Positions 9,157 to 16,047 of a DNA stretch of 36,145 nucleotides are shown piece after piece. Each line of letters opens with the position of its first letter. The first letter of the stretch is position 1. The notes under the pieces were generated by a model. It made no database searches, was not told the origin of the DNA, and worked only from the letters and a program-made list of their open reading frames with translations. The stretch is from the NCBI GenBank assembly GCA_025924355.1, contig JAICEE010000004.1:1-36145 (forward strand). Direction: 5' to 3'. The DNA comes from Nitrososphaera sp. GTDB lineage: Archaea > Thermoproteota > Nitrososphaeria > Nitrososphaerales > Nitrososphaeraceae. The position numbers were made by a program, and so were the translations under genes.

Positions 9157-10284
9157 TTACCTGCAGAGTCCGCCTGGAAGGCTGGTTCCACAGTTATTAT
9201 TGTCTCCGAAGCTGTTTTGGTTCACGTTTGTGGGCATTCCGTCGGCATTGTTCACATCAGCTGTCTCGTGGCCGAATACTGTGTTGTAATCTATGTGGTT
9301 GCGTTGGCTCATTGGATCTAGGTATATGCCACTAGCTCCGTTGCCATACATGTTGTTTGCAGCTACGACATTATCAGAGCTGCCCAGAAGGAGAATTCCT
9401 TGTTCCAAGTTAGCAACTATCTGATTAAACGCCGTAACTCCTCCGTTGCTTGCGTCTGATACTACTGCAATTCCGTTATTGGTGATAGTATTTCTACTGA
9501 CTTCGGTTCCTTCTGAACTAGCTACCACTGCACCTATTTCGTTGTTTACCAATTGCACATCTGTGAGTGCTCCTCCTGAACTTCCTAGGAATGTGACTCC
9601 TCTGCTAAAGCCAGCTATTTCTCCAAGACCTGCTATGGCAACATTGTCTGCATTTGCAACCAGTATTCCGCTACTGCCATCATAATCCGTTGTTTGTCTT
9701 GCTGTGCTGACTGGTCTTATATCTTCTGCATCGCCACCCTCGCTGTTAGAGTTTGCTGCTGTTGGATTTTCTGCATCGCCTCCCTCGCTGTTAGAGTTTG
9801 CTGCATCGCCTCCCTCGCTGTTAGAGTTTGCTGTTGTTGGATTTTCTGCACCGCCACCCTGAGGGCCAGTTATTGAATAGCCATTAAGGTTGATGGTTAT
9901 ACCGCTTGCACCCACAATAAGTCCATCTCCGTTATCACAATTAAGATCTGATGTTAGTGTCACATCTTGTGTTACGACCTGTCCGCATGATGCTATTCCA
10001 CTGTTTGGTTGTAGACCTAGTCTTTCACTTGCAGCACCCGCAGCACCATTACCATTGTCGTTAGCTGAATTACTGTCCTCTCCCTCGGTTTGCTCTTGAT
10101 TATTGTCTTCCTGTGTCACGACCTCATTATTGTCTTCATTATTGTCTTCCTGTGTCTGCTGTTCTTGGGCTTCTTGTTCGTCTGTTCCTTGTGCTTGCGC
10201 CATCATAGGAAATGTTGTTGCACTTAACACTGCAAGTATGCTCACAGCTACTGCAGTGTAGAACGCTATGGATTTGGGCTCCAT
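9157..10284 (-). CDS. Secreted right-handed beta-helix (NosD/CASH-like) protein with internal tandem repeat
   Basis: Signal peptide; SCGQVVTQDVTLTSDLNCDNGDGLIVGASGITINLNGYSITG; repeated parallel-strand pattern; NSNSEGGDAENPTA repeats. Confidence 0.8.
   Translation of the reverse strand: MEPKSIAFYTAVAVSILAVLSATTFPMMAQAQGTDEQEAQEQQTQEDNNEDNNEVVTQEDNNQEQTEGEDSNSANDNGNGAAGAASERLGLQPNSGIASCGQVVTQDVTLTSDLNCDNGDGLIVGASGITINLNGYSITGPQGGGAENPTTANSNSEGGDAANSNSEGGDAENPTAANSNSEGGDAEDIRPVSTARQTTDYDGSSGILVANADNVAIAGLGEIAGFSRGVTFLGSSGGALTDVQLVNNEIGAVVASSEGTEVSRNTITNNGIAVVSDASNGGVTAFNQIVANLEQGILLLGSSDNVVAANNMYGNGASGIYLDPMSQRNHIDYNTVFGHETADVNNADGMPTNVNQNSFGDNNNCGTSLPGGLCR
9725..9860. repeat. Intragenic tandem repeat encoding GGDAENPT(A/T)ANSNSE units
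   Basis: Plus strand carries three copies of ctgcatcgcc(a/t)ccctcgctgttagagtttgctg; units of 45, 30 and 45 bp by protein alignment. Confidence 0.85.
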
Positions 10285-11346: not shown

Positions 11347-12537
11347 TTGGGGAGCATGCAACGGCTGGTCAGGCATAGAACGTCTATGCTTGCGGTAATA
11401 TTAGCAGTATTAGTTGCATTATCATCCACATTAATGATGCTAATTACTATGGGACAACGGGAAGAAACACCAGTACAACAGGAAGCAAACTTGCAGGATG
11501 ATAAGCAATTAATTGCGAGCACAGATGCTAAAGGTAAAGCTCATTTTGGACTCGGCATTCTGAATCCTATAGAGCATAGGATTATCTCCCTTACAAATAG
11601 CAAAGAGAGCAAAGCTAATGCTACGTTTACCACAGCCACTGCAAATAGTATTACAATTAGCAAAGCTAATGCTACGTTTACCACAGCCACTGCAAATAGT
11701 ATTACAAATAACAACGACGACAATGACAACAAGGCTAATGCTAATGGTAATGCTAATACTCGCAATACGGGCAGGATGGAAGAAATTAAGAAGAATAACG
11801 AGGTTACTGACAACGCCAAGCCAAATACTTTTGTAAATTCTAAAAATAACCCTACAACAATTGCATCCTGCGGTCAGGTAATAACTAAAGATGTTATACT
11901 GTTAAAAGATATTGAATGTCCAGGAGTTGGGATGATTGTAGGCACAGATGGAATAACCATAAACCTCAATAATCATAGATTATCTTTGGCTAATACTACA
12001 GACATATCAAGCATTCCAAAAGTAGAAGAGATCGGAATACTGGTTCCAGGTCAAAAGAATATTACAATCAGCGGACCTGGTGTTATCACGGGTTTTGATA
12101 AGGCTATTGAATTTGCCGGGAGTGGAAGAAGTTATGTATTTGATCTTAAATTAATAGATAACAATATAGGCGTATCATTAAAAGCCTCCGATAAAATTAC
12201 AATCTATAGAAGCTTTATTGAAGGAAATACAATCGGCATAGCATCTCAATCAAGTAAGGATGCTTTGATCGTAAGTAATTATGTATCACAAAATACTAAT
12301 GAAGGAATTGTGCTTATGGATTCTAATAACTTCATAATAGGTACTAACAGTTTAATTGGAAACGGCAATATTGGAATGTTCTTAGATGTAAGTAGCTTCA
12401 ATAATACGATATCCTCTAACAATATCCTCAACCATGCTGTTGATGTTAGTAATGCGGATGGAATACCAATTCACATATCGATGAATGAATATCTTCAAAA
12501 TAGTTGTGGTAAAGCCCTTCCTGACGGAATATGCTAG
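11347..12537 (+). CDS. Secreted right-handed beta-helix protein, paralog of 9157-10284
   Basis: N-terminal hydrophobic segment; SCGQVITKDVILLKDIECPGVGMIVGTDGITINLNNHRL aligns to the paralog; start TTG/ATG region near 11356 also possible. Confidence 0.78.
   Translation: MGSMQRLVRHRTSMLAVILAVLVALSSTLMMLITMGQREETPVQQEANLQDDKQLIASTDAKGKAHFGLGILNPIEHRIISLTNSKESKANATFTTATANSITISKANATFTTATANSITNNNDDNDNKANANGNANTRNTGRMEEIKKNNEVTDNAKPNTFVNSKNNPTTIASCGQVITKDVILLKDIECPGVGMIVGTDGITINLNNHRLSLANTTDISSIPKVEEIGILVPGQKNITISGPGVITGFDKAIEFAGSGRSYVFDLKLIDNNIGVSLKASDKITIYRSFIEGNTIGIASQSSKDALIVSNYVSQNTNEGIVLMDSNNFIIGTNSLIGNGNIGMFLDVSSFNNTISSNNILNHAVDVSNADGIPIHISMNEYLQNSCGKALPDGIC
11608..11709 (+). repeat. Two tandem 51-bp units encoding SKANATFTTATANSIT(I/N)
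   Basis: agcaaagctaatgctacgtttaccacagccactgcaaatagtattacaa occurs identically (49 bp) at 11608 and 11659. Confidence 0.92.
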
Positions 12538-13425: not shown

Positions 13426-13794
13426 GTGTCAGCTGATCCTGCAGTCAGGGAGCTAGAGTGGTACCTGCGTGACCACCTATTTAGGCAATCACACGTTGGC
13501 AAGACCTCATTTAGAAGAGAATTCCTGCCGCAGGAAATGGTGACCCTTTATCTACGATACAGAAACTCCGATCCTGACCAGCTATCAAACATCCTGACCT
13601 CTGTGATTGAAATCCTAACTGCAAGAAAGGTTGTAAGGCAGGATCGCAATGAGCTGAAGCTGCTAGGCCGGATGACACGACTGCAATGCGTAAAATGTTT
13701 CTATGTCAATTACCTAACAGAGGTTGAGCCTAGGGCGTGCCTCCGGTGCCAGCACAGTGAACTACAAGACTTTCCAAATAAGAAAGCGGCATAA
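13426..13794 (+). CDS. Zinc-ribbon hypothetical protein
   Basis: 122 aa from GTG; C-terminal CVKC...CLRC pairs after a helical domain. Confidence 0.7.
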   Translation: MSADPAVRELEWYLRDHLFRQSHVGKTSFRREFLPQEMVTLYLRYRNSDPDQLSNILTSVIEILTARKVVRQDRNELKLLGRMTRLQCVKCFYVNYLTEVEPRACLRCQHSELQDFPNKKAA

Positions 13795-14050
13795 ACCTCT
13801 CGACCTCGCTAATAACTATCTTTTGCTGTAGCCTGAACTTGGGTATTTGAATAATAATTTGACTGTGTCGCAGCAAAGAAATAATTGAATTGAAACGCTG
13901 TTTAGGATGTTTTGGTTTACAATTCTTTCCGGAGGTATTTATCTTTAATTATAGAAGAATTTCTTTAGATTTTTTGGTTCACTCATGTAGGACTAAGGTC
14001 TGATGGTCTAGAAAGCTTGATATGAACTTCAGCAAGGCCTTCTAAGTGTA

Positions 14051-15370
14051 GTGCAGCTGCAAAGCAGGAAAAAGTGGACAGTCAACGGCACATCAAGAAT
14101 AAAGCCAGCCCAAGAGACTTTGAAGAAGGTGATGCCCGTATCAAAAAAGATAGGTGTCACCAGACTTGCCGATATTACTGACATGGATGTCCTGCGTATC
14201 CCAAATTATTCTGCGGTATTACCCGGCACTGAGGACTATATCTGGGTCTACAGCGGCAAGGGCCCGACAAAGGAGCACGCAATGGCAAGCGCACTAATGG
14301 AAAGTATTGAGCGCTACTCTTCCCTGCCGTCAGGCTGGCGGGGCAAATTTGTCAGGTCGAGCTATTCTGAGTTGTCTCAGACCTACAAGGTGTTGCATCC
14401 TGACAAGATAGTAGAGCCAGTAAGGTTTCTGTACTGCACTGACATGATAATGGACTGGCTACCTGGCTATGACCTTGTGAATAGCGAGGAAATAATGGTG
14501 CCTGCATCCATTGCATTGTTTCGATACACGCCACCTCCGCCGGCTGTCAATCCGTTTGCATACTTTCATACAAACGGACTTGCATCCGGCAATGTAATGG
14601 AAGAGGCAGTCTGTCATGCCCTATGCGAGCTAATAGAGCGAGATGCAATGAGCCTGGCAGACCTACGGGCAAGCGCTATCCCGTTCCATATCTTGCGCAC
14701 AATTGTACAGTCCCTAAATGCTGTGGCATTTTCAGTGTCCCCTATTTTAGCTGACAAATTTGTAGATGACCCAAGCATATTTCCTGATGTCGACATTTCA
14801 GAAATTGACTTTGGGCCTGTCAAAAACTTAGTCGAAAAGTTCAAACAAGCAGGCATTTCGCTTATGGTAAAGGATATTACCTCCGACATTGGCATTCCGA
14901 CATTTAATGCAAGCAGTGTAGAGTGGATCAGCCACGACTACGGCTACCTTGCAGAGGGACATGGGACACATCCTGATGCAAGGATAGCCCTCCTCCGCGC
15001 AATTACAGAAGTATCACAGACAAGGGCTGCAAACATTCAGGGCGCAAGAGATGATCTGCGGAAGATCAAGTATAGCGATGAGAACACCGATGATAGACGC
15101 GCTTGGCAGTTTATGCCCTCAACAAAAAAGATCAAATTCCCAGAAGTACCGACATTCTTTAACGAAGATATTCTCGACGATATCAATTTGATCCTCTTAC
15201 GCCTAGAGAGTGTAGGATTGAATCAGGTAATAATCGTCAACCTAACAAATCCGGACATTGGAATTCCAGTGGTCAGGGCAATAGTGCCAGGCCTTGAGAC
15301 CTTCAAGATAACAAAGTCAGTTATGGGCATGCGAGCAAGGGCGTGTTTTAAGCAATGGGCAAGCCGATAA
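14051..15370 (+). CDS. ycaO: YcaO-domain protein (ATP-dependent peptide backbone modification enzyme)
   Basis: ASALMESIERYSSLPSGWRG, CHALCELIERDAMSL, AEGHGTHPDARIALLRAITEVSQTRAANIQGARDD motifs. Confidence 0.92.
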   Translation: MQLQSRKKWTVNGTSRIKPAQETLKKVMPVSKKIGVTRLADITDMDVLRIPNYSAVLPGTEDYIWVYSGKGPTKEHAMASALMESIERYSSLPSGWRGKFVRSSYSELSQTYKVLHPDKIVEPVRFLYCTDMIMDWLPGYDLVNSEEIMVPASIALFRYTPPPPAVNPFAYFHTNGLASGNVMEEAVCHALCELIERDAMSLADLRASAIPFHILRTIVQSLNAVAFSVSPILADKFVDDPSIFPDVDISEIDFGPVKNLVEKFKQAGISLMVKDITSDIGIPTFNASSVEWISHDYGYLAEGHGTHPDARIALLRAITEVSQTRAANIQGARDDLRKIKYSDENTDDRRAWQFMPSTKKIKFPEVPTFFNEDILDDINLILLRLESVGLNQVIIVNLTNPDIGIPVVRAIVPGLETFKITKSVMGMRARACFKQWASR

Positions 15371-16047
15371 TATTTCTAGGGCCATCGCTGCGCCATGAAA
15401 AGGCGCGGAAAATCTTTGACGCAGACTACAGACCACCTGCAAGAAAAGGAGACTTTTTGCGGCTGGCTGCAGATCTTGCTGCAGTAGAGATGACAGTCGG
15501 GTTTGTCGATGGTGTGTTCCTGCAGGACTATCCTCCCACTCCGATTGAAGTGTACCATCTGGCAAGAAAGAATGGTGTGCTATTAGCTGGTGCAGCAAGC
15601 CTAGGTGCATTGAGGGCAGTCGAGCTTGAAAAGTTTGGCATGGTGGGAATTGGCAAGATATTTCAACTCTACAAGATGGGCAAGCTTTATGCAGACGACG
15701 AAGTGGCAGTCACATTTGCCTCGGAAGAGGGTAACTATCAGTTACAATCTGAGGCTATGATAGACATACGGTATAACCTCTACCTTGCACACAAAAAAGA
15801 AGTCATTAGCGAAAAGACAAAAAATGTGCTTGTCAAACTGGCAAAAGAGATTTACTTTCCCCACCGAAAATATACTTACATTCTCGAGGAAGCAAAGAAT
15901 AGGTATCCTGTGCTTGAAAGCGAGATCAACTCTTTTGGCAGCTATATTAGGTCAAATAGAAAGAGCCTCAAGGAGATAGATGCAATAAAACTTGTAAAAT
16001 ACCTTAAGGAGCGCTACGACTCCACTAGCACTATTTCGATGCGATAG
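15355..16047 (+). CDS. tfuA: TfuA-domain protein
   Basis: IFLGPSLRHEKARKIFDADYRPPARKGDFLRLA...VGFVDGVFLQDYPPTPIEVYHLARKNGVLLAGAASLGALRAVEL; overlaps ycaO by 16 nt. Confidence 0.92.
   Translation: MGKPIIFLGPSLRHEKARKIFDADYRPPARKGDFLRLAADLAAVEMTVGFVDGVFLQDYPPTPIEVYHLARKNGVLLAGAASLGALRAVELEKFGMVGIGKIFQLYKMGKLYADDEVAVTFASEEGNYQLQSEAMIDIRYNLYLAHKKEVISEKTKNVLVKLAKEIYFPHRKYTYILEEAKNRYPVLESEINSFGSYIRSNRKSLKEIDAIKLVKYLKERYDSTSTISMR

Follow-up and report, generated by a model that had tools for sequence, protein, structure and literature searches.

A small conserved protein resembling NHLP leaders as the probable partner of YcaO-TfuA in AOA

The YcaO-TfuA pair of ammonia-oxidizing archaea (AOA) from soil and hot springs, a relative of the machine that adds sulfur to the key enzyme of methanogens, is accompanied by a gene for a protein of about 58 residues with similarity to the NHLP (nitrile-hydratase-leader) clan, and a functional partnership between this small protein and the pair is strongly supported. 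YcaO enzymes catalyze the ATP-dependent activation of backbone amides, and the known members of the NHLP clan are leaders of RiPP precursors. No substrate has been named for the AOA YcaO-TfuA pair, which has been on record since 2017; one definite candidate, single-copy and conserved in the family, now makes the question directly testable. Eight thaumarchaeal TfuA clusters have been counted, with no substrate named (PMC8120280), and we found no report in the open-licence literature that links the AOA pair to an NHLP protein. The preliminary description of this DNA saw no adjacent precursor and proposed an unlinked cellular target; the reading of an arbitrary target without a precursor is superseded by the specific partner described here.

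Results

The sequence analyzed here (the window) is a stretch of 36,145 nucleotides from Nitrososphaera sp. It carries ycaO at positions 14051-15370 and tfuA at 15355-16047, both on the forward strand; the first, with a GTG start, encodes an ATP-dependent amide-activating enzyme of 439 residues from the McrA-type lineage, and the second, with an ATG start, a TfuA partner protein of 230 residues. The reading frames overlap by 16 nt (15355-15370, forward strand). The preliminary description had the coordinates, strand and overlap right, and the pair is genuine and belongs to a non-methanogen. YcaO matches its Pfam family over the full length of the model (PF02624, positions 1-325 of 325, 263 bits), and TfuA covers 118 of the 119 positions of PF07812 (126.3 bits against a cut-off of 30), placing both in their respective families. 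Against the equivalog models of the methanogen system the scores stay below the cut-offs, at 286.6 bits for YcaO (TIGR03266, cut-off 365) and 199.6 bits for TfuA (NF033432, cut-off 235.2). For YcaO the nearest solved structure is MJ1094 (6pe3, E 1.8e-41); for TfuA it is that of a TfuA protein, 6xp8 (E 5.9e-29).

Fourteen residues around the YcaO ATP/Mg site (G69, K70, G71, S80, E84, E87, N181, E185, E193, E196, R197, R316, E320 and Q323) are identical in AOA, mcrA-positive archaea and bacteria, and the site is therefore not degenerate; degeneracy there is one of the findings that the preliminary description would have counted against its hypothesis. The domain search of the window's YcaO returned the YcaO domain alone, with no RRE domain recognized. 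It is the one YcaO of its genome (G000; 72 contigs totaling 0.99 Mb, with a completeness of 66%).

In the window's family YcaO was found in 68 of 70 genomes, including all 37 of those that are at least 90% complete, and YcaO-TfuA is a core gene pair of this family. Within the class, TfuA was found in 33 of 200 genomes, all from families f1, f3 and f5; the genomes of f2, which is probably Nitrosopumilaceae-like, gave no TfuA match. Archaeal amoA occurs in all tested f1, f3 and f5 genomes except the incomplete genome of the window itself. None of the 200 genomes of the class carries mcrA (PF02745), nor does the window's own genome at 66% completeness, in agreement with the preliminary description, and McrA was accordingly rejected as the substrate of the pair. 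Elsewhere in the phylum, for which we used a sample of 300 genomes, TfuA occurs in families f20 and f49, and mcrA is found in 26 of 26 of those genomes.

In a YcaO tree made by a quick method, the 27 AOA sequences form one clade (SH-aLRT 100) that is sister to the mcrA-positive clade (89); the root is provisional given this method and the long branches of the bacterial outgroup. The placement is consistent with that of Nayak et al. (2017), in which the AOA homologs fall within the methanogen YcaO clade (PMC5589413).

Other ycaO-like sequences were seen in the course of this survey. Second ycaO paralogs, 50-60% identical to that of the window, lie in seven loci (L192 9489-10889, L193 9128-10516, L194 9402-10961, L195 641-2071, L196 1533-2951, L197 503-1885 and L198 615-2033) with neither tfuA nor the small gene nearby. 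Most of them sit amid several copies of an unannotated family of 200-320-residue proteins with the motif YGEWxxxWWQWxxSIPKxxNP and no Pfam match, which are possibly their dedicated substrates. In one Nitrosocosmicus MAG, ycaO is split over three frames (L052/L199 8446-9786), where the frameshifts may be an assembly error. Weak YcaO matches (25-31% identity) inside frames of 436-836 residues in Nitrososphaeraceae (G115:C67, G140:C128, G231:C326 and G212:C198) are possibly cyclodehydratase-like proteins.

When the ORFs around ycaO were clustered, the gene for the ~58-residue protein proved to be its only recurrent neighbor across genera; other conserved neighbors were rejected as partners, since none recurs in all genera. 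A profile built from this small gene found it divergent to ycaO in all 53 loci in which both were seen together, the kind of linkage shown by RiPP precursors, with start-to-start distances mostly of 50-360 nt and of up to ~1.6 kb in five Nitrosocaldaceae loci. Outside the window's genus (g1) and a genus near it (g3), it lies upstream of ycaO in every locus whose contig extends more than 346 bp upstream, and the adjacency is constant while the flanking genes vary by genus. Yet in g1 and g3 the small gene is present away from ycaO, at a distance of ~1 Mb in complete genomes of the window's genus. In the genome of the window itself it lies outside the window on contig C69 (G000:C69:2627-2800, minus strand), starts from TTG and encodes MESQQKEAEIISEVLLKAASEPEFRNELIKDPDIILEQYDVSPSAKLIIRRSIIDLTQ. 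This leader-like gene calls for a revision of the view that the pair has no obvious substrate. What stands of the unlinked cellular target that had been proposed is the unlinked partner; an arbitrary cellular protein ceases to be the simplest candidate beside a 58-residue NHLP-like protein whose gene is linked to ycaO in other genera and is distributed over the class together with the pair.

The gap upstream of ycaO in the window (13795-14050) lacks the divergent small gene of other genera. No convincing precursor-like ORF was found in it, and searching all six frames of the whole window with the profile of the NHLP-like small protein gave no match, so the absence of an adjacent precursor from the window holds; a nearby precursor peptide, which the preliminary description had named as evidence against its hypothesis, has its likeness beside ycaO in the relatives instead. 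On the far side of the gap, positions 13426-13794 encode a 122-residue protein with a C-terminal CxxC...CxxC arrangement (zinc-ribbon-like) and no Pfam match. It adjoins ycaO in 15 loci, all within the window's genus, and was rejected as the partner of the pair because of this restriction. Further upstream, two paralogous NosD/beta-helix secreted proteins (9157-10284 and 11347-12537), one of them with tandem repeats of the KANATFTTATANSIT type, flank a winged-helix gene (PF14947).

The small gene is present in 32 of the 33 TfuA-positive genomes of the class, with E values of 1e-20 or near. The single exception, G185, has a short contig that stops ~365 bp upstream of ycaO. Among the 167 TfuA-negative genomes of the class it was detected in none (best E 0.0015), and it is likewise missing from all 26 mcrA-positive, TfuA-positive genomes outside AOA, so that the small gene and mcrA are mutually exclusive among TfuA-positive genomes. 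Its profile also gave weak matches in TfuA-negative genomes of this class and, beyond it, in the phylum at large (best 5.6e-7, in G469); most of these are partial and lie within longer frames, and they were treated as other proteins. A search of plasmids gave no match. These counts are phylogenetically clustered and not independent, since they correspond to roughly a single gain and a single loss of pair and small gene together, and the conserved linkage is therefore the stronger argument.

The small gene is a real gene under strong purifying selection, with dN/dS of 0.02-0.15 within the genus. Its start codon is TTG in most Nitrososphaeraceae and ATG in the Nitrosocaldaceae line, and the two roughly coincide in the alignment. 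Most members have a TATATA box around -30, as leaderless archaeal transcripts do, and the transcript of the small gene is probably leaderless too. Of the processing features of a RiPP, neither a GG site nor a conserved protease was found, and no separate core follows the leader fold. The C-terminus extends ~16-20 residues past the NHLP unit, with conservation lowest over the final ten residues. Most of the conserved positions belong to the NHLP fold, leaving no conspicuous modification site.

Assignment of the small protein to the NHLP clan appears justified by several mutually agreeing matches, each below threshold. With hmmscan, every member tested matched NHLP-clan models of NCBIfam (NF038399, best 5.6e-6; TIGR03793, best 6.6e-5), and Pfam gave PF14407 (best 6.5e-4); all of these, PF14407 included, are under the curated cut-offs, with up to 22.7 against 50.9 bits for TIGR03793 and up to 26.3 against 40 bits for NF038399. 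Searched against PDB sequences, the small-protein profile matched nitrile hydratase alpha at 3.3e-8 and two NHLP leaders, 9cjx (0.003) and 8tb1 (0.039). In the opposite direction, the unmodified leader_NHLP model (TIGR03793) finds the small gene in nine of nine genomes with YcaO-TfuA and nothing in three f2 genomes, with one additional weak match in G136. That complete Nitrososphaera genome encodes a different, 92-residue NHLP-like protein (L159 4621-4896, G136:C1:387716). AlphaFold2 predicts a helical small protein (pLDDT 86; helices 3-20, 22-30, 32-37 and 43-57). The best Foldseek match to this model is the LigA domain of DesB (probability 0.94, rmsd 1.6 over 42 residues, E not significant at 0.66), and the NHLP structure 8tb1 ranks ninth (probability 0.44, TMq 0.56, E not significant at 3.0).

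Discussion

On balance, we think it somewhat probable that the pair installs thioamides, was kept in AOA and was redirected from McrA to the 58-residue NHLP-like protein, which it would recognize and most likely thioamidate. Computation shows that the enzymes are intact, that the small gene co-occurs with them and keeps a conserved divergent linkage, that it is under purifying selection and encodes an NHLP-type sequence with a plausible fold, and that mcrA is absent. TfuA partners are linked to thioamidation both in McrA and in RiPPs of the thiovarsolin type (PMC5589413, PMC6511847), and a folded NHLP leader is bound by a YcaO via protein-protein contacts (PMC12455567). In the proposed mechanism, YcaO would activate a backbone amide at the expense of ATP and sulfur would be delivered with TfuA. 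The pair, retained in AOA of the Nitrososphaeraceae and Nitrosocaldaceae lines, would have shifted from McrA to a folded helical protein that it recognizes as bacterial YcaO enzymes do NHLP leaders. We infer that the two would interact physically, with the small protein as the substrate and a thioamide as the modification, most likely placed near the C-terminus; the product may be either a stable small protein that carries the thioamide or a short thioamidated peptide released by cleavage.

Five Nitrosocaldaceae loci (L092-L096; for example, L094 6522-9750) have, after ycaO-tfuA and in the same orientation, two oligopeptide (Opp)-type ABC permease genes and in most cases a thioredoxin-fold gene; a gene resembling sodium bile acid symporters lies upstream. 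The permease and thioredoxin-fold genes would suit a peptide product; the arrangement was not seen in other genera. ThiS-family proteins occur in 12 of 12 genomes tested, three of them without the pair, and are thus uninformative; the check for a sulfur-donor gene co-occurring with the pair, proposed in the preliminary description, identified no dedicated carrier in this way.

More tentatively, the pair could make a universal peptide-derived thioamide compound of soil and thermophilic ammonia oxidizers, similar to a cofactor or metal binder (cf. PQQ and mycofactocin), from this core-less protein; that would be a housekeeping archaeal thioamidated RiPP made by former McrA-modifying enzymes, a possibility we regard as rather less than even. 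If the redirection from McrA to the small protein is correct, it would illustrate how an enzyme pair can exchange a metabolic enzyme for a leader-type small protein as its target, and Archaea would have a core thioamidated product.

Instead of being modified itself, the small protein could serve as an adaptor or as a docking subunit, in effect a leader in trans that steers or stimulates YcaO-TfuA towards another cellular protein. Such a role would fit NHLP folds that work by protein-protein contacts (PMC12455567), a bare leader-type fold without a core, and a gene that is tightly coupled to the pair yet tolerates unlinking without loss. The neighborhoods examined, however, contain no second conserved partner gene. 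We also know of no NHLP leader that acts naturally in trans, and we consider this role possible but doubtful.

That the pair thioamidates a conserved, unlinked housekeeping protein, the small protein being incidental or merely regulatory, seems improbable to us. There is precedent in the action of E. coli YcaO on uL16 (PMC13063428), and the AOA pair is single-copy, universally kept and vertically inherited. However, with the E. coli-type model NF040716 the window's YcaO reaches no more than 37.7 bits (cut-off 700), and it has a pI of 6.3, against the acidic 4.4 of the uL16-modifying YcaOs (PMC13063428), which rules out that type. The consistently divergent linkage of the small gene with ycaO, and their joint absence, argue against a merely incidental protein.

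The YcaO superfamily forms azolines, amidines and thioamides, and the pair might place either of the first two on the small protein. This is very unlikely, as TfuA partners go with thioamidation in McrA and thiovarsolins (PMC5589413, PMC6511847) and MJ1094, the nearest solved relative of the window's YcaO, comes from a methanogen that contains thioglycine (PMC5589413). A functionless, decaying relic of methanogenic ancestry, suggested by the sister position to the mcrA-linked clade and the loss of mcrA, is already contradicted by the complete retention of YcaO in good genomes of the family, the invariant motif residues and the strong purifying selection on the small gene.

Comparison with known systems

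Among the closest known systems is the YcaO-TfuA pair that modifies the McrA glycine in methanogens (TIGR03266/NF033432), which the AOA pair resembles in its enzymes, gene order and overlap and to which it is related as a sister clade. The AOA pair differs in falling under both equivalog cut-offs, in lacking mcrA in its genomes and in having as its partner the 58-residue NHLP-like protein, absent from the mcrA-positive genomes tested.

In bacterial thioamidated RiPP clusters (thiovarsolin, network 7), YcaO-TfuA also lies beside a small leader-type gene (PMC6511847), whereas the AOA pair is archaeal, single-copy and family-universal, has neither core peptide nor dedicated cluster, and is unlinked from the small gene in Nitrososphaera. 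Some precursors of the actinobacterial TfuA clusters (network 7) have nitrile-hydratase-type domains (PMC6511847), and in Rhizobium beringeri (L208) a Nif11-type leader gene adjoins the pair. MprE/MprC, an NHLP leader with its YcaO cyclodehydratase, is similar in that a YcaO acts on a folded leader resembling nitrile hydratase; unlike the window's YcaO, MprC has an RRE domain, which binds the NHLP, and it makes azolines, and unlike the AOA small protein, MprE has a long leader and a separate core (PMC12455567). The Os1348 and Franean1_4349 small peptides (NF038399, PF14407) are the best-scoring short NHLP families for the AOA protein, which, being below their curated cut-offs, would form a diverged archaeal branch. 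Finally, E. coli YcaO acts on the ribosomal protein uL16, a folded conserved protein, as proposed for AOA, but it does so without TfuA and belongs to an acidic, distant YcaO type (PMC13063428).
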